23,705 nucleotides of DNA from a virus: IMG/VR virus record IMGVR_UViG_3300042691_008999, positions 1 through 23,705 of that record. One strand, written 5' to 3'. The translations under genes were made by a program, and so were the position numbers. The notes below the pieces were generated by a model. The model worked only from the letters and a program-made list of their open reading frames with translations, was not told the DNA's origin and searched no databases. Below are positions 1 through 10,075 of the stretch, one piece after another; within the stretch, counting starts at the first letter, position 1, and every line of letters begins with the position of its first letter.

Positions 1-1276
1 GGCTTTCAATGAAGTCTTTAGTCTTGTCTTGTCTTAGTTGTCCTATGATAGTTTCCGGACCCATGTTGAGGGCGCGAATAGCCGACGGATACAGACTGTT
101 GATATCCAGCGAACCAACCCAGTCTTGTAGTCCTTCTTTAGGATAAGCAACATACGCACCTGCTGCCGCAGTATCTTCTCGATCATCCATCTTAGGACGA
201 TTAGGAACAACAAATCCTCTGCGATGTGCTTCATTAATAATAGCCTGTTCAGTTACAGCAACAGCACCCATTGTTGTTTGTAACAATACTGTGTTTTCGT
301 GTGCCAGCGTGTTGGCTAAATCTAAGAACTTTAGTTTTTTATCGAGTCTGTCCAAGAGAGCGCAGTCTTGTCTGTTGTATTCCACAAATGTTTTAAAGTC
401 ATTGTTGTATAGTTGGTCCAACGTTCCTTCGTACTGTGTTTTTCTTTCACCAAGTTCGTATTCCGCGATGGCATCCAATCGATAGGAGTGTCTTTCTTCA
501 TATGTATATTTCCTATAAAGTTCGAGATAGTCCATATGTACTCGACCAACGAAATCAAATGTTACAGCCTGTCTACCAAATTTTTCATATTCTCTTTTTC
601 GAGGAAACTGATCAAACAGACAGAATCTGCGTGTATCTTCTTTTGACAATACTTTAGTTACACGGTTTACCGTATATGGAATATCAAATCCTTCTGAGTT
701 CCAACCGGATACTACATCGGCTTCTTGAATTAGATCTAAGAATGTATTAAGTAAATCTGCTTCGTTATCAAACAACATAGTGTTAGGAAACTCTTTAACT
801 GCTTCCTTGGCTTCTTCCATAGTCATAGTTTTAGGAGGTATAGCCAAACAGATCATAGTATCCAACCATTGTAAGTGGACTGCAATCGCAGTAATTGGCA
901 TGAACGCATCATCTGGACTTGCGTAACCACGTTCTGGATCAAAGTCTACCTCAATATCGAAGAATGCGGCGTTTAGTTTAGGTGCGTCAGCGTTAAGGAA
1001 GTTTTCACTTAAACAGACAAAGATTGGATTGATATCACTTTCGTAAAGTTGTTTGCCACTGTTAATGGCCATTTCTTTGCGAAGTTCTTTGGTATTTTTA
1101 CAAACGATCCTAGTTACTGGGTCACCATAGATAGATGAATGTTTGCCCTTAGGATCTTTTACGTAGAATGTATGGCGTACTGGAAAATCTCTAAATTCTC
1201 TTTCGCCTTTTTTGTTTCGTTCGACAATCTTGATAATATCATTATCACGGTCGAACCATGCGTCAACATAACTCAA
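1..1276 (-). CDS. 43: Family B DNA polymerase (T4 gp43-like), N-terminal 425 residues; runs off left edge
   Basis: Replicative DNA polymerase with 3'-5' proofreading. Visible in order: an N-terminal domain (about 1-100), Exo I FFDIEVD (105-111), Exo II GWNSEGFDIPY (191-201), Exo III YNRQDCALLDR (300-310), and the start of the palm with motif A DINSLYPS (391-398). Exonuclease acidic residues are all present, so proofreading should be intact. The remaining palm, fingers and thumb lie beyond position 1. No ATG is available: the frame has an in-frame TAG ten codons back at most, and the only sensible start is TTG at 1276-1274, preceded by AGGAG about 9 nt upstream. An out-of-frame ATG lies just inside. 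The gene follows the DsbA-like gene after an 86-nt gap. Family assignment is certain from motifs; the start is inferred. Confidence 0.95.
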   Translation of the reverse strand, partial: MSYVDAWFDRDNDIIKIVERNKKGEREFRDFPVRHTFYVKDPKGKHSSIYGDPVTRIVCKNTKELRKEMAINSGKQLYESDINPIFVCLSENFLNADAPKLNAAFFDIEVDFDPERGYASPDDAFMPITAIAVHLQWLDTMICLAIPPKTMTMEEAKEAVKEFPNTMLFDNEADLLNTFLDLIQEADVVSGWNSEGFDIPYTVNRVTKVLSKEDTRRFCLFDQFPRKREYEKFGRQAVTFDFVGRVHMDYLELYRKYTYEERHSYRLDAIAEYELGERKTQYEGTLDQLYNNDFKTFVEYNRQDCALLDRLDKKLKFLDLANTLAHENTVLLQTTMGAVAVTEQAIINEAHRRGFVVPNRPKMDDREDTAAAGAYVAYPKEGLQDWVGSLDINSLYPSAIRALNMGPETIIGQLRQDKTKDFIES

Positions 1277-1362: not shown

Positions 1363-1620
1363 TTAGATACGTTTTGTAATATCTAGGATAGCTTCAATTT
1401 CTTGCCAATCTTCATTATAAGCACTCCAATCGCCTTTATGCGCGATTTTAATTGCCTTGTTAATGACGCTGGGTTTTACTTGTAATTCTTCTGCAACTGC
1501 CTTGACTGTTTCTTTTAAGCCTTCTTGTAAATCTTCAATTTCACGTAGTACTGTGGAACCTTCACTAATTAAACGTTCCAATTTAGCCTTTTCTTCTGCT
1601 CCGTAATTGCGACCAGCCAT
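1363..1620 (-). CDS. dsbA: DsbA-like dsDNA-binding protein (late-transcription associated)
   Basis: Small 85-aa helical, charged protein. Its C-terminal half (VKAVAEELQVKPSVINKAIK, then HKGD and a run of acidic residues) resembles T4 DsbA in length and layout. T4 DsbA is an 89-aa dsDNA-binding protein linked to late promoters, with the similar core RAKDELGVDGKMFNRL...YHKD. It should bind phage DNA as a small accessory factor. It has a good ribosome binding site (AAGGAG, 6 nt before ATG) and its own sigma70-type promoter immediately upstream, so it probably leads the transcript that also reads the DNA polymerase. The match is by pattern only; a generic helix-turn-helix protein is the alternative. 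Confidence 0.6.
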   Translation of the reverse strand: MAGRNYGAEEKAKLERLISEGSTVLREIEDLQEGLKETVKAVAEELQVKPSVINKAIKIAHKGDWSAYNEDWQEIEAILDITKRI

Positions 1621-1714: not shown

Positions 1715-1945
1715 TTATGCTGAAAAATCTATACCAAATGTTTTTTTAGCATCGTACCCCTTACTGTCCAAATATGCTTTTACTGCGGCACGTTTTTCTG
1801 GAGTAGCATTATCATATGCTTTCTTAACTTCGCCTTTTGCTAGACTTGGATATTGAAAGGCCATATCTATGTCAGATCTTTCTTTAGCAGTCAGTTGTAC
1901 TGGAGTTTTAGCGGTAGTACTAGCAGTAGGATTATTAGCTGTTAC
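1715..1945 (-). CDS. Putative -1 frameshift extension (76 aa) of the gene ending at 1942
   Basis: This frame has no start codon of its own near its beginning. It is open from the A10 run through 76 codons to TAA at 1715-1717. It begins VTANNPTASTTAKTPVQLTA, a Thr/Ala/Pro-rich linker like the rest of the upstream protein. It then gives a compact charged domain (KERSDIDMAFQYPSLAKGEV, KKAYDNATPEKRAAVKAYLD, SKGYDAKKTFGIDFSA). The composition continues that of the 0-frame product, and the frame stops at a terminator. It is most simply translated as a fusion, by ribosomal -1 shift at A AAA AAG (1951-1945) or RNA polymerase slippage on A10. A one-base sequencing or assembly error in the homopolymer is the competing explanation. 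Confidence 0.7.
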   Translation of the reverse strand, partial: VTANNPTASTTAKTPVQLTAKERSDIDMAFQYPSLAKGEVKKAYDNATPEKRAAVKAYLDSKGYDAKKTFGIDFSA

Positions 1946-3024
1946 TTTTTTTTTTCGGCAGCTTTTGCGTCTTGCTCTGCTCGATTTTGTAATCCAGTAC
2001 CGGTATATACATCTCTTAATCTGCTAGAGCTTGAAGTTGCCTTTCCTTCTGGTTTTCCGCTTTGTGAAACTGTGTTTGCATTATCTGCGGATCCTGCTCC
2101 GCCTTGATACTTGTCACGTAGTCGTTTTAATTCATCTGGAACCGGTGCATCTTTAATAGGATCAAGTTCTTTAAATAACGCATCGATCTCTGCTTTGAGT
2201 TTATCTTCTTCTGAAGGTTGAGCAGGTGCTGGAGCAGGTGCTGGAGCTGGTGCTGGAGCTGGAGCAGGTGCTACATTAGGACCAGTTGTCGGTGGATTAA
2301 CAGGTGCTGTTACTTCCGGCTTACCACTTTGATCTGTTTCATCATCACCAGAAACTAAATCAGATATAGCACTACCTGCCTTGTATAACCCGACTCCTGC
2401 AACAATTCCAAGTGCAGCCGCCAGTTTTGGATTTCGTTGCACAAATCTTTTTAATACAGCACCCCGTTGTGATAGTTTTGCTTTAGGTGTTGTTCCAGGT
2501 TTAGGTGCTTCACCAGCTTTAGGTGTTGTTCCAGGTTTAGGTGCTTCACCAGCTTTAGGTGTTGTTCCAGGTTTTGGTGCTTCTCCTGCCTTTGGTGTGG
2601 TTGTATTAGGAGCAGTTGTATTAGGTGATGTATTAGTTCTTGGTGTGGTTGTATTAGGAGCAGTTGTATTAGTTCTTGGAACAGCAGTTGGTGCGTTATA
2701 TGTTGTTTGTCCGTAATTACCTTGTCTATAGTTTGCGTTTGGTGTAGCAGTTGATGTTGTAGCAGTTCCAGAAGATTTTTGTAATTTTACAAAATCGTCT
2801 GTGCTTATAACTTTATTTGTTTGTCTATTAAGATAGTTATTACCTACTTTTTCCCAAGTCTGACCATTTATGTTTGCTACCCTCGGTAACTGTGCGGCTA
2901 GTCTTTGTGCGGCAGTTGGCCCAACCATCTGTTGAAATACTTTATCTGCCGCTTTCTTTTTGGCAGCTTCGGAAACTGATGTGTCTGTTTCTACAATGTT
3001 AATATAATCTCTTAAATTTTTCAT
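1942..3024 (-). CDS. Pro/Thr-rich repeat protein, putative internal virion protein (0-frame product)
   Basis: About 360 residues. I choose the start at 3024 (MKNLRDYINIVETD) because AAGGAA lies 6-7 nt upstream; an in-frame ATG at 3042 overlaps the previous gene and has no ribosome binding site. The N-terminus ends in I-V-E at 10-12, like a T4 capsid-targeting peptide. A helical region follows, then a Thr/Asn/Pro linker with three 12-residue GEAPKPGTTPKA repeats, a short hydrophobic stretch (LAAALGIVAGVGLYKAGSAI), a Pro-Ala run, and a charged region with RLRDKYQGG and RLRDVYTGTG. It ends AEKKK-stop inside an A10 run, and a -1 shift would add 76 residues. The function is unknown. Low-complexity linkers joining small modules suit a virion or internal head protein. 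Confidence 0.7.
   Translation of the reverse strand: MKNLRDYINIVETDTSVSEAAKKKAADKVFQQMVGPTAAQRLAAQLPRVANINGQTWEKVGNNYLNRQTNKVISTDDFVKLQKSSGTATTSTATPNANYRQGNYGQTTYNAPTAVPRTNTTAPNTTTPRTNTSPNTTAPNTTTPKAGEAPKPGTTPKAGEAPKPGTTPKAGEAPKPGTTPKAKLSQRGAVLKRFVQRNPKLAAALGIVAGVGLYKAGSAISDLVSGDDETDQSGKPEVTAPVNPPTTGPNVAPAPAPAPAPAPAPAPAQPSEEDKLKAEIDALFKELDPIKDAPVPDELKRLRDKYQGGAGSADNANTVSQSGKPEGKATSSSSRLRDVYTGTGLQNRAEQDAKAAEKKK
1945..1956 (-). promoter_or_regulatory. A10 slippery site with A AAA AAG heptamer before TAA
   Basis: The minus-strand frame reads GAA AAA AAA AAG TAA. This contains the classic X XXY YYZ heptamer A AAA AAG (as in E. coli dnaX) in the correct phase, directly followed by the stop. Shifting -1 gives GTA ACA GCT and 76 open codons. 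Only a weak downstream stem is visible (GTACT pairing with AGTAC 14 nt apart). Confidence 0.6.
2223..2273. repeat. Pro-Ala coding repeat
   Basis: Tandem GGTGCTGGAGCA-like units encode an alternating Pro-Ala run on the minus strand, a stiff linker within the protein ending at 1942. Confidence 0.8.
2481..2588. repeat. Three 36-bp tandem repeats inside a coding region
   Basis: Copies at 2481-2516 and 2517-2552 are identical; the copy at 2553-2588 differs at three bases. Each encodes 12 residues (GEAPKPGTTPKA, minus strand). A second imperfect repeat follows at about 2592-2683, encoding NTTTP/NTTAP units. The near-identity suggests recent slippage or unequal recombination. Confidence 0.9.
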
Positions 3025-3034
3025 CGATATTTCC

Positions 3035-4282
3035 TTAAGCACTCATGTAGTATTGTTGTATAGCGGCTTTAGTAGGTTCGTCTATAATTCCAGTAACTTG
3101 GATTTCAGCGCCAGCTTTGATTAGATCTTGTTGTATAGCAGTAATAGTTAACTTGCCTAACACACCATCAACACCGTCACCGCCTGGGCCAGTAGTACCT
3201 AGATTATATCCATCTGCTTTTAGTTGTGCTTGTAATTCTGCTACATCTGGATCTGAGTTTCTAGGCTGTGCTTTTGCAACTTTTTTTCCGCCTGCTTTAC
3301 CGGTATTTTGTACTTTTGATCCTGCTGGTGGTTTTCCTTGTTGTGTAGCTTGATACACTTTTTCAACAATAGCATCAACAATTGAATTAACATCATCACC
3401 TAGAGCATAGCTTGCCGCTAGTCCGCCAACTCCACCAGCTACGAATCCGACTATCGCACCTGGTCCAGTAATAGCACCTGCTATTGCCGCACCGATAATA
3501 GCACCGGCCCAGAATAAACCAACTTGTGCAACAACCCGACTAATAATTTTAGAAACTTCTGCTTTGTAGCGACTTTCTGGTAAGTCTGTTGGCAGAGCTT
3601 TAATTTCTTGCCAAGCGTCCCAGGCTTCCCATAGTACCATAACAGGTAGTGCTACTTTGCTTAATACTTTTCCGCCAAAGCCTTTAAGTGACTGCCAAAC
3701 ACCAGTTGCCGGCGCCGCCGGAACTTGCATAGTAGCCGCTGCCGCCGCTTCGAGCAAGGTGTAATTATAATTCTCCATTAGATCTTTAACAATAACATTC
3801 TCTGTTAAATCTTGTTTGGTTACGCTTTCAACAATGTAATAGGCTAACGACGACTCTTGAACTGGTGCAGGTTGTGCTGAAGATTTTTTCAACTCTAACC
3901 ATTTGTCGATAAGTCCTTCTAATTTTTTTAGTTTTTCTAAAATAGCAGGATCTAGCAATAGTTTAGGATCAATAGGTTCGCCTAGTTTTACACCAATCTT
4001 AGCTAGTAAGTTTTTAACATGAGTTAATTCACCAAATACATCGCTAAAGTCATCTAGAATATCTGCATCAACTTCTGGATAGATTCTTCTGATTTCTTGC
4101 CACTGACGTGCATCTTTAACATCGCCGATAGCCGCATAAACTGCTTCCTCGTCGGTGCCTAGACCTGTAACTGCTTTTCTAATTTGTGCGGCAATTTTTG
4201 ATGATGCATCAAGTGTATCCGAAGGTGCTTCAGACAGTCTCTCGATTTCATCCATTTTTTCAATTAATGATTTCAAGTCCAT
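3035..4282 (-). CDS. Annexin-like / glycine-rich membrane / peptidoglycan-binding protein, putative internal virion protein
   Basis: 415 residues with several modules. Residues 1-18 end in L-S-E (16-18), a possible prohead-protease site. Residues about 29-85 resemble an annexin repeat: IRKAVTGLGTDEEAVYAAIG with GLGTDEE at 40-46, then ADILDDFSDVFGE. A helical charged region covers 86-135. Residues 159-180 hold further L-x-E sites (LTE, LME, LLE) before an Ala run. Residues 253-291 are hydrophobic and Gly/Ala-rich (GLFWAGAIIGAAIAGAITGP...), suited to membrane insertion. Residues 344-412 look like a PG_binding_1 domain (VAELQAQLKADGYN, GVDGVLGKLTITAIQQ, TGIIDEPTKAAIQQ). The combination suggests a protein delivered with the DNA that meets the envelope. 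It follows the 107-aa gene by 1 nt. The domain calls are by eye; the annexin match is the least certain. Confidence 0.7.
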   Translation of the reverse strand: MDLKSLIEKMDEIERLSEAPSDTLDASSKIAAQIRKAVTGLGTDEEAVYAAIGDVKDARQWQEIRRIYPEVDADILDDFSDVFGELTHVKNLLAKIGVKLGEPIDPKLLLDPAILEKLKKLEGLIDKWLELKKSSAQPAPVQESSLAYYIVESVTKQDLTENVIVKDLMENYNYTLLEAAAAATMQVPAAPATGVWQSLKGFGGKVLSKVALPVMVLWEAWDAWQEIKALPTDLPESRYKAEVSKIISRVVAQVGLFWAGAIIGAAIAGAITGPGAIVGFVAGGVGGLAASYALGDDVNSIVDAIVEKVYQATQQGKPPAGSKVQNTGKAGGKKVAKAQPRNSDPDVAELQAQLKADGYNLGTTGPGGDGVDGVLGKLTITAIQQDLIKAGAEIQVTGIIDEPTKAAIQQYYMSA

Positions 4283-4283
4283 A

Positions 4284-4607
4284 TTAGATCTCTTTATTAC
4301 GATTTTCCATTACTTTGTCTGCAACCTTACGTGCATACATTTTTAGTTGTTCTTTCCGTTCTTGCTCTTTTTGTGAAAAAAGCTCTTCTGCTTCAACAAA
4401 ATATTTTTTAATCACAGAGTCAGTTTTTGGAGTATCAACAACTTTTTCGTTTTGATAGTGTTGCATTGCCATTTGTACAGGAAGGCTAACTTTATGTGGA
4501 CTAGCACCTTCCTTTACGATTTGTACAAATTTTTTCATGTCATCAGATCCTTCTACAGGCTTATTTGAAGCACCGTCTAATGCCTGCAGAATTTTCTTCA
4601 TGTCCAT
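4284..4607 (-). CDS. Conserved phage protein of unknown function (107 aa)
   Basis: Charged, mostly helical protein beginning MDMKKILQALDGASNKPVEG. Its middle, SPHKVSLPVQMAMQHYQ, looks like a conserved block, and the C-terminal half is Lys/Glu-rich (EAEELFSQKEQERKEQLKMY). There is no signal peptide, membrane segment or known catalytic motif. It sits between two putative internal virion proteins, 5 nt after one and 1 nt before the next, so it is probably made late with them. It has no clear L-x-E N-terminal peptide. I recall similar N-termini in T4-like aquatic phages but can give no function. Confidence 0.75.
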   Translation of the reverse strand: MDMKKILQALDGASNKPVEGSDDMKKFVQIVKEGASPHKVSLPVQMAMQHYQNEKVVDTPKTDSVIKKYFVEAEELFSQKEQERKEQLKMYARKVADKVMENRNKEI

Positions 4608-4612
4608 ACTGA

Positions 4613-5875
4613 TTACCCGTTTAATCGTGTTAAGAACTGTTTCATACGGTCAAGTTCGGTTGACTCGTTTAAAGAATCAGTTTTTTCTTCTTCGCATTCA
4701 CAAGGATCCTTGTGGCATGCATCGCATTCTTGTGATTCTTCAATTTGAAAATCTTCTGGATTTAAATTCTCTAAATTTAGATCTTCTAGTTCTTCTGCAA
4801 CTTCTTCTTTGCTAGGTGCTAGTTCTTCTAAACTCTCTTTAAGAGATTTAGCTTTTGATTTCCATTGTGTACTAGCATCTTCTTTTACTTTTTTATCTTT
4901 TTTTGCAAACGGATTTTTCTTCTTGTCAGCAACTGCCTTTTTCATCGGCTCCTTTTTGTTGCCGTCTTTGTCCATGTCTAAAAAGTCTGGCTTGGCTGCT
5001 TCATCAACTTTCTTTTCTTTGCCCATAGCCTTCTTGATAGCTTTGTCTTTATTGTCCATGTACTCTTTCGAGTCTGGTTCGTCCTTGCCATCGTGGTCCA
5101 TATCACCTTTATCAGATTCGTTAACTTGCTTACCGTCGACATAACGCTTAACTGAACCTGGGTGTTTCTTTTCATAGGCCTTAGATGCTTTCTCTTGTTC
5201 TTTGTCTTTGGCTTTTTGTTCACGACGTTCTGCACCAGTCATTGCAGTTTTCTTTTCTTTCTTAGGTGGAACATAATCCTCATCGTCTTCTGGTTTAGCA
5301 TCACGCTTGTGAACTAGGCCAGTTGAAGTTTTTGTAGCAGTTCCGTGCTGTGTTTTATATGTGTCACCAACTTTTGATTTTTCGTCAAATGCTTCTTCCA
5401 TGCTACCACATTCTTTCATACCATGCACTGGACACTCTGTACCTTCTGCTGTATGGTTGCAGGATTTAGCTTCGTCGACTTTCTTTTCTTTTTTGTCTTT
5501 CTTGATCTTCTCAGCCTGAGCTTTTTTGAGTTCAGCTACTTTGGCTTTTGCTTCTGTAAGTTTAGTTAGGATCTCACGCTTGCGATCTTCGCTCATAACT
5601 TCAGCGTTGGCAAGATGTTCACCGTACTCACTGAACTTCATTTCATATTCTAAGTAGTGATAAACAGATGCGATATAATCCGCGGCTTTGGTAATTTTAG
5701 CCTGAACCCAACTTTCTAGTTGAGTTGAATCATCCATACGCTTGAATAGTTTAAGCGAATAGTTTGCTAACTTGTATAAGTCAGCTTTAGCCATCGCTCC
5801 TTCGCGGTCGTTATTTGCTTCGGCTCCTGCGTTGTGAGCGTCTGGATTAAAATCTGGTTGCATGTCGTCGTGCAT
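4613..5875 (-). CDS. Lys/Glu-rich protein with EF-hand-like loops and Cys clusters, putative internal head protein
   Basis: 420 residues. Residues about 23-78 form a compact block (NDREGAMAKADLYKLANYSL, LESWVQAKITKAADYIASVY, HYLEYEM) that I recognise as recurrent in T4-like aquatic phages. The rest is mostly Lys/Glu/Asp-rich and probably disordered. It contains two Asp loops like calcium-binding EF-hand or dockerin loops (DMDHDGKDEPD at 258-268, DMDKDGNKKEP at 300-310). It also has Cys clusters (C139, C148, C156; C384, C387, C392, C394). It ends ELDRMKQFLTRLNG. A good ribosome binding site (GGAG, 8 nt) and a GATAAATA late-type box lie upstream. The composition suits a DNA-neutralising internal protein or scaffold-like core component; the function is not established. 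Confidence 0.75.
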   Translation of the reverse strand: MHDDMQPDFNPDAHNAGAEANNDREGAMAKADLYKLANYSLKLFKRMDDSTQLESWVQAKITKAADYIASVYHYLEYEMKFSEYGEHLANAEVMSEDRKREILTKLTEAKAKVAELKKAQAEKIKKDKKEKKVDEAKSCNHTAEGTECPVHGMKECGSMEEAFDEKSKVGDTYKTQHGTATKTSTGLVHKRDAKPEDDEDYVPPKKEKKTAMTGAERREQKAKDKEQEKASKAYEKKHPGSVKRYVDGKQVNESDKGDMDHDGKDEPDSKEYMDNKDKAIKKAMGKEKKVDEAAKPDFLDMDKDGNKKEPMKKAVADKKKNPFAKKDKKVKEDASTQWKSKAKSLKESLEELAPSKEEVAEELEDLNLENLNPEDFQIEESQECDACHKDPCECEEEKTDSLNESTELDRMKQFLTRLNG

Positions 5876-5901
5876 GGTAAGAACTCCGTAATCTTATGTT
5901 A

Positions 5902-5909
5902 TATTTATC
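5902..5909 (-). promoter_or_regulatory. T4-late-type promoter box GATAAATA
   Basis: GATAAATA on the minus strand, 26 nt before the 420-aa gene, differs from the T4 late -10 element TATAAATA at one base. It overlaps the last codons of the preceding gene. Confidence 0.5.
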
Positions 5910-6687
5910 GTTTGATGCTTCCGCCTGTTAGAAGATTAGCCTTCATATCTAGGGCGTTTTTAGCTGTACCGTCTTTGTTTTTAGGCTGTTTAGGCGGTTT
6001 ATTTTTATAAACTGCTCCAACTGCTACATTACCTGCACTAGTAGAACCTGCTGTTGCGGTTTCTGCTAGATCATCTTCTGCTTTTTTAGTAAGCATGATC
6101 TTACCTTGCAGTTCTGGTTTATTTTTTAGGATAGCAAGGCCGTAATTATTAGCACCTTTTTTCCAGTCAAATACTTTTGGCTCACCTTTGCTCTTTAAAA
6201 TTTTTCCGTTAATCTTTAAGTACCAAGGCCCGCGATCTAAGTCGCGTTGTTTTTGTACTTGTTGCTGATAATATTCTTCTTCGTCGCCTAGTTCGTGCTC
6301 CATTTCGCGGCGTTTGAAGTCACGCTTTTCCCGATCCATTTGACGTTGCTGATCACGCTCGTAGTCCATTGGATTATAGTAACTGCTTTTTCTTCCGTAC
6401 ATTTCTTCTACACTTTCTTTGGGAACACAATTAGGAACAGTACGTCCACCTTTTTTCTTAGTACCTACAGGCTTGTAGCCCTTCCAACAGGGATTGTCTT
6501 TAGGATCACGAAGACCTTCATCCATTGGAACTTCTTGTTTCTTATGTTTGAAGTCGCCTTGCTTTTCAGCTTTCTTTTTATCCTTGTGTGCTCCAGACCC
6601 GCTAGTCTGCTGATTTTTAGCAACAAAGTTTCTAGGTTTGGGTGCTTCTTGTTTTTTAGCTTCGGATAATATTTCGTATGCTTTCAT
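5905..6687 (-). CDS. Conserved charged protein, putative internal head protein (260 aa)
   Basis: Begins MKAYEILSEAKKQ, a close look-alike of the T4 internal-protein targeting peptide ending in L-S-E (7-9). A Lys-rich region follows, then a two-Cys block DNPCWKGYKPVGTKKKGG...VPNCVPKE (64-90, C67 and C87) that I recall from many aquatic T4-like phages. Next is a highly charged Arg/Glu/Gln helix (about 105-150), a small folded block GPWYLKINGKILKSKGEP...FDWKKGANNYGLAILKNKPE (153-192), and a C-terminal TATAGSTSAGNVAVGAV stretch ending GGSIKR. There is no enzyme motif. An AGGA ribosome binding site precedes ATG. I infer packaging in the head from the N-terminus and neighbours. Confidence 0.75.
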   Translation of the reverse strand: MKAYEILSEAKKQEAPKPRNFVAKNQQTSGSGAHKDKKKAEKQGDFKHKKQEVPMDEGLRDPKDNPCWKGYKPVGTKKKGGRTVPNCVPKESVEEMYGRKSSYYNPMDYERDQQRQMDREKRDFKRREMEHELGDEEEYYQQQVQKQRDLDRGPWYLKINGKILKSKGEPKVFDWKKGANNYGLAILKNKPELQGKIMLTKKAEDDLAETATAGSTSAGNVAVGAVYKNKPPKQPKNKDGTAKNALDMKANLLTGGSIKR

Positions 6688-6688
6688 T

Positions 6689-6907
6689 TTATTTTCCTAC
6701 AGGTTTCTCGCCCGTTAAGTAAGGCTTACTAAACCATAACTGGAACCATTCCGGTGTTCCTGGTTTAATATTATGTTTTTTCATTAGTTCGCCTTTTTCG
6801 TTTCCGGTAATGCTGATATTACTTCCTTGATTAATAGAATATTCACTAAGTCCTCGAAACTTATTGCCTATCCCAGCTAACTGTTTTATTTGATCAAGTT
6901 CATTCAT
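6689..6907 (-). CDS. Conserved small phage protein (72 aa)
   Basis: Begins MNELDQIKQLAGIGNKFRGL and has L-S-E at 20-22, a possible prohead-protease site. The C-terminal block HNIKPGTPEWFQLWFSKPYL is rich in aromatic residues and looks conserved. The N-terminal ELDQIKQL resembles ELDRMKQF at the C-terminus of the 420-aa protein encoded at 4613-5875. The gene is spaced 1 nt from each neighbour and has no obvious ribosome binding site, so it may depend on translational coupling. Function unknown. Confidence 0.7.
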   Translation of the reverse strand: MNELDQIKQLAGIGNKFRGLSEYSINQGSNISITGNEKGELMKKHNIKPGTPEWFQLWFSKPYLTGEKPVGK

Positions 6908-6908
6908 A

Positions 6909-7343
6909 TTATTTCATAGATGCTCTTAACATCCAACTGTGTTTGCGATGTGCATCCATACGTCCTGCGATAAAATCACTTAGACCGTGTTCACCTAAAT
7001 CTTCGCTCATATCAAAAACTAATTTAAGTAGCTTGACCATTTTTTCGCTATCTTCGTGCAATTCTGCAAGCATCTGTTCTGCTGGTAGCATTTGTGTTTC
7101 ATCATCAACTTGCGTTAGCATCGAAAATCTTTGCAAACTAGCAGGCGTATAAGTTCCAGCCTTGCGTATATTTTCTGCAAAATCGTCGATACTATCATAG
7201 ACTTCTTCATAGATTTTTCCAAACAACTCATGATATTGAAAGAAGTTTGGTCCTTCTACGTTCCAATGAAAATTCTGTGCTTTTAAAGCAAAGGCAAATT
7301 CGCTAGCAAATGCCGTCTTTAGTGATAAATGAAATCTTTCCAC
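6909..7343 (-). CDS. dps: Dps-family mini-ferritin
   Basis: 144 residues, slightly shorter than cellular Dps and without the long Lys-rich N-terminal tail. The Dps core is clear: ALKAQNFHWNVEGPNFFQYH, ELFGKIYEEVYDSIDDFAEN, IRKAG. The dinuclear iron site ligands H26, H38, D53 and E57 have the family spacing (+12, +15, +4), so ferroxidase activity is expected. Dps proteins form 12-subunit shells that oxidise and store iron with peroxide and may coat DNA. The start is GTG at 7343, with GGAG 7 nt upstream; an overlapping ATG is out of frame. It lies among putative internal virion proteins, which raises the possibility of packaging, though it has no targeting peptide itself. The family call is firm; the role in infection is open. 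Confidence 0.93.
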   Translation of the reverse strand: MERFHLSLKTAFASEFAFALKAQNFHWNVEGPNFFQYHELFGKIYEEVYDSIDDFAENIRKAGTYTPASLQRFSMLTQVDDETQMLPAEQMLAELHEDSEKMVKLLKLVFDMSEDLGEHGLSDFIAGRMDAHRKHSWMLRASMK

Positions 7344-7344
7344 A

Positions 7345-8484
7345 TTATACTCCGTACTTGTTCTTTTTAGGTTTAGCCACAGGGCTAACTGTATTTGTTG
7401 ACTCTAATTCTTGGCTACGCATGTCACCGTGATTTACATCTTGATGACTAGCACCAGCAGCCTTAAAGGCTTTTTTTAATATTTTAGCATCTTGTTCTGA
7501 ATACGGAAATGCTACTTTAAATTTTCCAACCCAGCTCTTAGGATCGATATCAGGATCGTTTTCTCCGTCGGTCATAGCTGCCGCCATCATAGCACGGTAC
7601 TGTACATAATCAGCATTCCATCTCTCAGCATCGGCAAATTTATAGACACCTCTAGTAGACTGCTGTTGCCTTTTAGTAATTTTTCCTTCTTTTGCTTCTT
7701 GTAGTTCTTGTTCAATTACCTTAATTTGTTCTGCAAGTTTAAAAGCACGTAAGTTCTTACCTGGAGTTGATGCATCAACATCAGCTGTAGTATTTTGTGC
7801 AGTAATCCTACCTACACCAAATTCTTCTGCAACCTCTGGTTGTTTCTTTTTGGCCTTGGCAGCTTCTTTTTCAGCCTTAAGTCTTTCTTTTTCTGCGGCT
7901 TGATGTAAGTAGGGTGTTAGATAATGTTTAACAACTTCAAAGAACGACTTCCCGCCAATCGGTGTGTTAGCAGGCACACCAGCTGCCTGTTCAAATGCCT
8001 GCGGATCGTTATTAGCAACAGCCGCACGTAATTCTGTAGCACTACTAATGCGAGGTGCTTCTTCCCATACAATATCTTTAAATCGGTAAAAACCGTGTGG
8101 GCCTTCTACACCGTTAGATTTTTGTAATCCTGCAACAAATACTTTTGCATCAGCCGGATCAGTTACAACGTGTAGGGTAACAGGTCCGTGTTTTTTATAC
8201 ACATGTGCGGCTAATGTCCACCAACTTTGTTCGGCAACGAGATGTTCTTTGACATCTGGCCAAATTGCCTGCATGGCTGCAATTTTAACTTTAAATGGTA
8301 AAGGGTCTTTAGGACCTTCTGTACTTTGATTTGTACCAACGTACCAAGCACTAAATCCAGAAGCTAATTCCCAAGCGGCTTTATGCCCTTGATGAGGAGG
8401 ATTAAAACGGCCAAAAATGATTGCAACATCTTCGACTGATTCACCTGCTTCATATATATTTTCGTATAGTTCTCTTAATTTCAT
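7345..8484 (-). CDS. HxGH adenylyltransferase (NMNAT/cytidylyltransferase-like) with phage C-terminal module
   Basis: 379 residues. After a short N-terminal peptide ending I-Y-E (10-12) comes a nucleotidyltransferase domain: VAIIFGRFNPPHQGH (20-34, HxGH H31/H34) and ISSATELR (146-153), equivalent to the ISSTxxR signature. This pattern suits nicotinamide-mononucleotide adenylyltransferases; substrates with the same fold include pantetheine-phosphate and CTP-linked alcohols, so specificity is not proven. A Lys/Ala/Glu coiled region (195-220) leads to a separate C-terminal module (about 265-365: KRQQQSTRGVYKFADAERW, PDIDPKSWVGKFKVAFPY, GDMRSQELESTN) that I recall in many aquatic phage proteins. 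The start overlaps the stop of the ligase-like gene by 4 nt, so the two should be translated together. Confidence 0.85.
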   Translation of the reverse strand: MKLRELYENIYEAGESVEDVAIIFGRFNPPHQGHKAAWELASGFSAWYVGTNQSTEGPKDPLPFKVKIAAMQAIWPDVKEHLVAEQSWWTLAAHVYKKHGPVTLHVVTDPADAKVFVAGLQKSNGVEGPHGFYRFKDIVWEEAPRISSATELRAAVANNDPQAFEQAAGVPANTPIGGKSFFEVVKHYLTPYLHQAAEKERLKAEKEAAKAKKKQPEVAEEFGVGRITAQNTTADVDASTPGKNLRAFKLAEQIKVIEQELQEAKEGKITKRQQQSTRGVYKFADAERWNADYVQYRAMMAAAMTDGENDPDIDPKSWVGKFKVAFPYSEQDAKILKKAFKAAGASHQDVNHGDMRSQELESTNTVSPVAKPKKNKYGV

Positions 8485-9698
8485 ACTCTAGTTGCTCCCG
8501 GAGCCCACGATGTTGGTACTAATTTTATATTACCATATTTATGCCCTGGCTGTGCATAGCGAACGTAGCCTTCGCCTTCGGTGTCCCATATCTCAGGCCG
8601 ACTCTGCGATTTATAAGTAGCTACTACTTTATCTTTCATGTCGCGAATATCTTTGATCAAATCAAATATAGCATCAAGTCCGCCGGGCTGTTGTTTAATC
8701 ATATCGATGATATGCTGTTGTTTCTTTTGGCTTACGCCTTTTTGTTGCATCCAGTTCATAAAAGTTTCGCCAGTAATACTACGGAAGTTTTGTTTGCCAG
8801 CCGCATGTAAGTTACTCATCTGATTAAAGAACGGATAAAATATTCCGTTCTTATCAGGATCAGGTAGGCTAGCTAAGAAAGCATCTACTTTTGGACCTAA
8901 TTTAGTAGCACGTTGTATTGCGATATCGATTTCTTTCGTATCCATACCGCTACCTTCACTAGTATAGATCGGACCTTGAACAATTAGTCCGGCTGTTTGA
9001 TTAAACATTGAAAAGTCATCCATTGGTTTCTGCGCTCTGTCAGGAGCACCGAACTGATCAAACGATCCATGTCCTACGACCATTACTCTTGCCTTGCTAA
9101 TACGCTGTCCTAGTTCACTTGTGGCATCAACGTGGTAACAGGTCTTTGATTTAGGATTAGGACAGAAAGTCCATATTCCGTTAGGATATTCTTTAGTCTT
9201 TTCTAAACGTTTGTCTAGGCTAGGATCAACTCCAAATAAACTATCAGCATATACAAAGCCTACAAAGTCTTTAGGTGTAGCCGAATCAAATAATGGATAT
9301 AGATTGGCAAAATTCTTAGCAAACGACTGCCTTGCTTTTTGGTCTTCGGGTGTTTTAGGTTTTCCGCTTTGATTAGCAATAAAATCATATACACCTTCTG
9401 GAGTATCTGATTTTACACCTCTGCTCCACTGATTGTGTCCTGCAAGGATTAAGGGACCGCCCTTAGTTTCTCTACCCCAATAGACTTGCGGGTTACCATC
9501 CCATTTGCCGCGTACTGTAGTACCACCTGCTTTTTCCTGTGCGATTTCTTTAAAATGCTGTAATGCTTCCAGCGTACCTTGAGATCCTTTAAAGAATACT
9601 AGATGTTCTGGATGATTAAATGCCCGACCGTATTTTTCCATACTGTCGTCAGCAGGTCCAGATTTATCCTCAAAATAAAATAGTTCTCTAAGTAACAC
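8481..9698 (-). CDS. DNA/RNA ligase-like covalent nucleotidyltransferase (DUF6267-like)
   Basis: 405 residues. Motif I-like VRGKWDGNPQVYWGR has the candidate nucleotidyl-lysine K65 in KxDG. FVGFVYADSLFG fits a motif III position, EGYVRY (376-381) fits motif IV, and YGNIKLVP (K392) fits motif V. This is the order of the ligase/mRNA-capping superfamily. The middle is not like classical ligases, and I recall such phage proteins classed as an uncharacterised family (DUF6267). The substrate is unknown. It starts at GTG 9698 with AAGGA 6 nt upstream, 2 nt after the previous stop. The N-terminus MLLRELFYFE resembles the targeting peptides of its neighbours, though without a strict L-x-E. It overlaps the adenylyltransferase gene by 4 nt. 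Confidence 0.75.
   Translation of the reverse strand: MLLRELFYFEDKSGPADDSMEKYGRAFNHPEHLVFFKGSQGTLEALQHFKEIAQEKAGGTTVRGKWDGNPQVYWGRETKGGPLILAGHNQWSRGVKSDTPEGVYDFIANQSGKPKTPEDQKARQSFAKNFANLYPLFDSATPKDFVGFVYADSLFGVDPSLDKRLEKTKEYPNGIWTFCPNPKSKTCYHVDATSELGQRISKARVMVVGHGSFDQFGAPDRAQKPMDDFSMFNQTAGLIVQGPIYTSEGSGMDTKEIDIAIQRATKLGPKVDAFLASLPDPDKNGIFYPFFNQMSNLHAAGKQNFRSITGETFMNWMQQKGVSQKKQQHIIDMIKQQPGGLDAIFDLIKDIRDMKDKVVATYKSQSRPEIWDTEGEGYVRYAQPGHKYGNIKLVPTSWAPGATRV
8536..8543 (-). promoter_or_regulatory. Possible late-type box CATAAATA
   Basis: CATAAATA on the minus strand lies 51 nt before the adenylyltransferase start, within the ligase-like gene. It is one base from the T4 late box, but it also encodes part of HKYGNI, so chance is likely. 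Confidence 0.25.
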
Positions 9699-9700
9699 AG

Positions 9701-10075
9701 TTAGTCCTTATATTTGCCTTCTTGGAAATTTTTACAAAATTCTTCATGCATTTTTTGGCAAACTTCGTTACAAGTTTGTTCTTCTATTGTATGAGGAAGC
9801 TGTCTAATAGGAAATTCTTTTATATAATTTTTATATGCTTGTTCAACAACTTTTTTAAACACATTAGGGGATGGTTCTTTATTAGAGTTCATAGACTCTA
9901 CGCAGTTGCTAATAACTGGGTATAAGTGCCTACGATAAAGGTCGTCATTATTGTTTAGATAAAAAACTAAATCTTCAACTAAATCATAGGCGATATCTGT
10001 TCGTCCGTCTTCGGTTTTAGTAATAAAGTTAAGATCGTTAAACTTTTTGCCTTCTAAAAGCTCTCTAATACGCAT
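9701..10075 (-). CDS. Conserved phage protein (124 aa)
   Basis: Begins MRIRELLEGKKF with L-L-E at 6-8, again like a capsid-targeting peptide. The body is soluble and mostly helical, with blocks IAYDLVEDLVFYLNNNDDLY, RRHLYPVISNCVES, IKEFPIRQLPHTI and CNEVCQKMHEEFCKNFQEGK. The last has three regularly spaced cysteines. I recall proteins with the same architecture in T4-like cyanophages, without a known function. It is the first gene of the cluster behind the best late-type promoter box and is followed by the ligase-like gene after 2 nt. Confidence 0.8.
   Translation of the reverse strand: MRIRELLEGKKFNDLNFITKTEDGRTDIAYDLVEDLVFYLNNNDDLYRRHLYPVISNCVESMNSNKEPSPNVFKKVVEQAYKNYIKEFPIRQLPHTIEEQTCNEVCQKMHEEFCKNFQEGKYKD

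Follow-up and report, generated by a model that had tools for sequence, protein, structure and literature searches.

The DNA analysed here (the window) is a virus record of 23,705 bases (23.7 kb), a genome fragment. Where the original prediction had placed a single protein with annexin-like, membrane and peptidoglycan-binding parts, the minus strand carries an intact open reading frame of 415 aa with an ATG start, at 3035-4282. The gene, the segments of its product and the neighbouring genes are as follows.

3035..4282, minus strand: whole gene, 415 aa
4229..4282, minus strand: residues 1-18, N-terminal helix MDLKSLIEKMDEIERLSE that looks capsid-targeting, with a cut presumed after residue 18; leader common to relatives, helix at 3-17 in the model
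3992..4225, minus strand: residues 20-97, single annexin-like repeat with GLGTD loop (40-44) and D78, from PDB sequence search, model and alignment
3749..3835, minus strand: residues 150-178, four clustered L/I-x-E sites, with 168-178 (LMENYNYTLLE) fitting a second conserved motif
3398..3535, minus strand: residues 250-295, hydrophobic stretch rich in Gly/Ala that may form a membrane hairpin, from hydropathy and model
3044..3256, minus strand: residues 343-413, PG_binding_1 domain, from Pfam
4613..5875, minus strand: C420, charged protein, upstream neighbour and slot marker; gene order kept in relatives
4284..4607, minus strand: MDMK, 107 aa, upstream neighbour; gene order kept in relatives
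1942..3024, minus strand: downstream neighbour with probable start ATG 3024 (MKNLRDYINIVE), low-complexity middle and hydrophobic stretch LAAALGIVAGVGLYKAGSAI
1363..1620, minus strand: MAGR, 85-aa gene at the other slot edge; gene order kept in relatives
1..1276, minus strand: start of a family-B DNA polymerase gene, truncated where the contig ends

Genomic context and the slot before the DNA polymerase

Besides the start of the T4-type DNA polymerase, the window encodes PhoH, peptide deformylase, spanins, a ClpA-like ATPase and two products labelled from sequence and PHROG category, a clamp-loader ATPase and a GH19-type endolysin. A DnaJ-like protein was read from its own sequence, the matching PHROG being nameless. 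No head-assembly genes were seen in this 23.7-kb contig. Judged by the DNA polymerase of a relative (L004), the closest isolates are jumbo phages, namely Sinorhizobium phage Phosso (50.5%) and Agrobacterium phage Atu_ph07 (46.4%), with Serratia phage BF also among the nearest (43.4%). The annotation tables of these three phages, which were compared as annotations rather than as proteins, showed no positional relative.

Residues 86-415 of the protein recur as an identical partial copy in another contig, L001. The gene that follows it (window 1942-3042) contains KAGEAPKPGTTP repeats, of which L001 has a different number. It stops at roughly ten consecutive A, beyond which another frame stays open (VTANNPTAST...), so that the end as annotated could reflect a frameshift or sequence error. 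Several products encoded at 4284-10075 have similar starts (MKAYEILSE, MKLRELYENIYE, MRIRELLE, MLLRELF and MDMKKIL), and the group may form a cassette whose products are packaged in the head, one of them cytidylyltransferase-like. The same group includes a Dps/ferritin-like gene at 6909-7343 (Pfam Ferritin, 74.3 bits), the frame of which is opened by GTG.

The order C420/MDMK, gene, MAGR, PolB defines a slot that is found in the same arrangement in many contigs, and the contents of which change fast from contig to contig. Relatives numbered 328 when confirmed, the best 80 of which were returned. A set of 86 slot-interval proteins came down to 51 that were non-redundant at 85% identity. An annexin repeat is present in four of the 51 and absent from most, a PG-binding-like match was found in 26 by a local model partly trained on slot proteins, and 16 contain a 19-mer with a hydrophobicity of at least 1.4. 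L138, L127 and the L106-type proteins were found by the annexin motif alone and are located in the same slot, so that their slot membership constitutes independent support. They also have PG-binding-like segments, weak in Pfam, and for the L106-type these matched PG_binding_3 (E 0.0039) and PG_binding_1 (E 0.014), both below cut-off; together with its annexin repeat, the L106-type thus contains the parts of the window protein in a different order. L106-type proteins open with MDLKNLINKLDTISSKKILLE, followed by S, and contain LIESFGYIAEA. L179 and L180 (E 0.02-0.03) as well as L194 (E 0.08) matched the annexin model weakly; these matches were left uncounted, as was a C-terminal PG-binding part of L116 that was recognised by eye and has no Pfam match. 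The C-termini of L138, L127 and L106 share a tail, AES.ELD.I..LSG, which is like the end of C420 (LNESTELDRMKQFLTRLNG). Another slot-region protein, of 479 aa (L034, 3930-5369), by eye has a first half like a HAD-type phosphatase and a second half like a GH19-type endolysin.

The annexin-like repeat and its phage relatives

In animals and plants the annexin repeat is a known module for binding membranes, and its calcium motif comprises a GxGTD loop and a downstream acidic ligand, with about 38 residues between them. The window protein has one repeat, in contrast to the four-repeat core of eukaryotic annexins; its GxGTD loop occupies residues 40-44, and 34 residues separate T43 from D78, as against the roughly 38 of annexins. 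Pfam Annexin (PF00191) did not match the whole 415-aa protein, and scored its 83-aa segment at 13.3 bits (E 0.091, 22 residues aligned) against a cut-off of 25. A phmmer search of the PDB gave 77 matches, the best 60 of which were all annexins or annexin fusions, with a best E of 1e-11 summed across repeats and of about 7e-4 for a single repeat. AlphaFold2 modelled residues 17-111, with 31 phage rows, as the five-helix fold of an annexin repeat (pLDDT 91.7, pTM 0.82), whereas the full-length model (pLDDT 62) is useful just for the N-terminal ~110 residues. The best 50 Foldseek rows obtained with the segment model were annexins or annexin fusions throughout (best E 0.044, probability 1.00, TMq 0.60), and none of these 50 reached E<=0.001. 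According to the note that accompanies VIA-align, unrelated helical bundles can also attain its Z of 9.8, a value that is hence indecisive alone for a small helical domain; non-annexin rows were ZYG11B, ZER1 and astrotactin-2 (Z 6.7-7.3), in a list that excludes no family.

Scanning 2.9 million viral contigs for the motif returned 103 stretches, many of them not annexin-like, such as capsid-like KANTGAGTDELL proteins, and the profile built from it retained 40 distinct annexin-like segments; E-values from searches with this profile are circular because the model was built from the same segment set. In a set of 20 records, all but one of which (19) had been selected for an annexin-motif locus, the profile matches 18, G003 and G037 being without a match. 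Thirty representatives were aligned with the window segment, near copies and the truncated L123 being left out. Pfam Annexin detects 17 of these 31 segments at E<=1 (best 9e-08), and 12/31 proteins at E<=0.01. When full proteins were scanned with Pfam in two batches of ten, the wider phage set reached the Annexin cut-off of 25, with five proteins at 25.6-31.0 bits: L127 (31.0), L064 twice (30.6 and 25.6) and L054 (25.6) from one batch, and L041 (27.5) from the other. The D78 column, which lies outside the search pattern, is acidic in 28 of the 31 segments. In L064 (3173-4930) three adjacent reading frames each encode one annexin-like repeat and a hydrophobic N-terminus.

Taken together, the PDB matches, the relatives above the Pfam cut-off, the acidic column and the AlphaFold2, Foldseek and VIA-align results make it very likely that the repeat is homologous to annexins. 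A convergent origin, in which a helical domain acquired a GxGTDE loop with no shared descent from annexins, could appeal to the sub-threshold score of the window segment, to the lack of a Foldseek match at E 0.001 and to a Z within the range of unrelated bundles, but we regard it as highly improbable given the proteins above cut-off and a helix pattern and acidic residue that fit annexins. Filing the slot gene in the annexin family proper was rejected, because the protein has a single repeat and itself misses the Pfam cut-off; we prefer the label 'annexin-like repeat, homologous to annexins'. The annexin resemblance proposed in the original prediction is thus borne out by PDB matches, fold model and relatives, while the Pfam Annexin cut-off is passed by phage relatives and not by the window protein. 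By analogy with annexins, the repeat may dock on lipid, perhaps with calcium.

No isolate-phage relatives were found for the window protein, L043, L092, L081, L095 or L046, and the 83-aa segment gave chance-level matches only against isolate phages at E<=10. A 2014 survey reports annexins from bacteria as single domains, and none in viruses (PMC3894181). No literature on phage annexins was found, in a search that mostly did not extend to subscription papers and preprints. If the homology is right, contigs from uncultured phages contain annexin-type repeats, and many such contigs are large, T4-related and encode a prohead protease.

PG_binding_1 is present in seven of the 31 annexin-repeat proteins (the window protein, L043, L111, L118, L097, L122 and one not individually identified), and a phage lysozyme domain in two (L086 and L097). 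With the window protein set aside, the PG_binding_1 count is 6/30, in which the kin L043, L111 and L118 are taken separately and three independent lineages are represented among those identified, versus <=1/90 for length-matched ORFs from the same contigs (P=0.0009); the latter figure reflects the absence of PG_binding_1 from families with two or more members among the 90 neighbours. In L086 (2514-3356) and L097 (10978-12003) the annexin-like repeat is fused to phage lysozyme. The L097 fusion includes PG_binding_1 as well, and this protein matches a baseplate-hub lysozyme PHROG (5e-08).

Putative envelope modules, leader and candidate prohead-protease sites

The C-terminal domain matches Pfam PG_binding_1 (PF01471) at 30.3 bits in the whole protein and 36.6 bits as a segment, against a cut-off of 23, in agreement with the original prediction, and we infer that it holds peptidoglycan. 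Over the half that contains this domain and the hydrophobic stretch, PHROG matches were to endolysins (1493 and 10341) and a tail-associated lysin (1047), at 2.7e-06, 4.9e-06 and 7e-04; PHROG and Pfam searches detected no catalytic or toxin domain in the 415-aa protein. The highest 19-residue Kyte-Doolittle mean, 1.99, falls at 250-268, and residues 250-295 weakly resemble DUF6861 (E 0.0016, below cut-off) and a glycine-zipper. The model, in which the hydrophobic stretch forms helices, has a pLDDT <50 over 263-296, so that membrane association of 250-295 can be called no more than likely. The stretch is also not constant, as the remaining three annexin-bearing slot proteins have none (maximum 0.56-0.75).

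Several L-x-E sites had been noted; the whole protein has 12 L/I-x-E sites (P=0.00055 versus shuffles), four of them within 40 residues at 150-178 (P=0.016). Among the 51 slot-interval proteins, 30 start with the pattern M[DN]h[KR].hh, and the 21 without this strict pattern include unrelated genes as well as L127 and L138. [LIVF]xE followed by [ASGN] occurs at residues 11-34 in 25 of the 30 leader proteins, mostly ending at 14-23, against a shuffle mean of 3.8 (maximum 10 in 5000 runs) and 10% of internal windows; these 30 are not 30 independent cases, because they are related and were thinned at 85% identity only. In the window protein the site is LSE-18, followed by A, consistent with an N-terminal propeptide of 10-20 aa that ends in a prohead-protease-type site. 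A second motif, [LIV]xE[SND][FY]x[YF], is found in 17/51 (shuffle mean 0.11, maximum 1 in 300), and in the window protein reads LMENYNY (168-174), with site 170 inside it and 178 just behind. Of the cleavage positions originally predicted, 18, 170 and 178 thus lie in motifs kept among relatives, while 161 does not. The significance of the N-terminal LxE is reached across relatives and not within the window, where its enrichment in the gene group (5/8 versus 6/21) is not significant (P=0.11).

All four records of at least 180 kb that have this neighbourhood encode a T4-gp21-type S77 prohead protease, and in one of the four, G041, the slot gene has an annexin repeat. Among records of all sizes the protease is present in 5/15; it is seen in relatives only, because the window contig is without head genes. 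The separate set of 20 records in which the annexin profile was run contains the protease in ten. The gp23 gene was present in 5/5 records searched, and in three protease/gp23 stretches gp23 has LxE then S or T ahead of a mature-like start. If the leader has the meaning proposed here, the combination of conserved leader and LxE would be a simple rule to spot head-packaged proteins in uncultured phages.

Proposed role and comparison with known systems

The domain make-up, the conserved slot, the conserved LxE leader and the protease of the relatives can be read from sequence, and on that basis a large freshwater-type phage carries a protein that looks packed and trimmed in the head. We propose that this protein, from a T4-related jumbo phage, is packaged in the head, trimmed by protease and ejected, and that it tethers membrane to wall, a proposal that we consider to have an even chance of being correct. 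The N-terminal helix would send the protein to the prohead core, where a gp21-type prohead protease would remove the leader after LSE-18; a second cut, at LME-170/LLE-178, may separate the annexin-like repeat from the hydrophobic/PG-binding half. During infection the mature protein, in one part or more, would exit with the DNA and act at the envelope, where the hydrophobic hairpin would insert into the inner membrane, the PG_binding_1 domain would grip the wall and the annexin-like repeat would dock on the membrane, perhaps assisted by calcium, the parts jointly stapling membrane to wall round the entry path. Packaging in the head is quite probable in this phage and N-terminal trimming only slightly less so, and the role as an envelope staple is plausible but falls just short of an even chance. 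The original prediction of an envelope-crossing factor cut into pieces during head maturation is upheld in part, by the annexin-like, PG-binding and head-maturation parts, by two conserved cut-site motifs and by the S77 protease in the largest contigs of relatives.

A protein that is packaged, cut and injected in the manner of T4 internal proteins might instead have a cytoplasmic target, for example a host defence system, its envelope-type domains serving as spacers or DNA-condensing parts. T4 internal proteins are reported to be a highly diverse defence set with the targeting sequence alone in common (PMC3012670), and slot proteins are equally variable, but the recurrence of PG-binding-like segments (26/51, by the local model partly trained on them) and of hydrophobic 19-mers of at least 1.4 (16/51) points to the envelope, and we consider a cytoplasmic target unlikely. 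Somewhat less likely still is an unpackaged, late-made protein that works inside the infected cell as a lysis helper or as a superinfection-exclusion tether from membrane to wall. The PHROG matches to endolysins and a tail lysin would suit such a protein; the window already encodes a GH19-type endolysin and spanins, the protein has no detected catalytic domain, and the leader-LxE of 25/30 positional relatives would have no role there. A tail or baseplate protein that aids passage of the tail through the cell wall would be in keeping with the lysozyme fusions of L086 and L097 and with the baseplate-hub match of the latter, yet the window protein is without lysozyme and its leader resembles head targeting, which makes this reading improbable.

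If the proposal of a head-packaged envelope tether is right, it provides T4-related jumbo phages with a testable envelope-crossing ejection protein, and ties annexin-type repeats, absent from viruses in the 2014 survey, to phage cell-wall modules. More broadly, and tentatively enough that we would put it slightly below even, phages may own an annexin branch, in which single, possibly calcium-binding repeats are a recurrent membrane-docking module of injected or wall-acting proteins; a head-targeting leader would precede these repeats and the PG-binding, lysozyme and hydrophobic modules among which they are shuffled, such that the head would carry a membrane-wall staple kit for the entry point.

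Head-packaged, leader-bearing ejection proteins are as such an already known kind. In T4, ejection proteins have a leader of 10-20 aa that is removed by gp21 (PMC7411985), and internal proteins have diverse bodies with the leader alone constant (PMC3012670). The window protein and its relatives share with the capsid-targeting-sequence proteins IPI-III and Alt of T4 a short, here presumed, N-terminal propeptide with a prohead-protease-type site, variable bodies behind a constant leader and, in relatives, the protease type; they differ in that these sources describe no annexin-like or PG-binding domain for the T4 proteins, and in that the window protein is a putative packaged protein. The giant-phage ejection protein gp47 of SPN3US is reported to be processed by a prohead protease and to have a predicted transmembrane helix (PMC5694885), a likeness taken from its description, whereas the SPN3US protease motif is given as AxE (PMC7411985). 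Bacterial single-domain annexins share the single annexin-type repeat outside eukaryotes (PMC3894181), in contrast to which the window repeat belongs to a phage protein and is accompanied there by PG_binding_1 and a leader of head type. The endolysins of PHROG 1493 and 10341 and the tail-associated lysin of 1047 are weakly matched by the hydrophobic and PG-binding half, and the window protein, in contrast, is without a lytic enzyme domain. The PVC secretion system is phage-tail-like, and if our proposal holds, the window protein would be a natural counterpart to the annexin domains that are found in toxins from such injectors. A 2012 study describes single annexin domains in PVC-delivered toxins and suggests that they help in breaching membranes (PMC3482391); the window protein resembles these toxins in its single annexin-type domain within a putatively delivered protein, and differs from them in that no toxin domain was detected in it.
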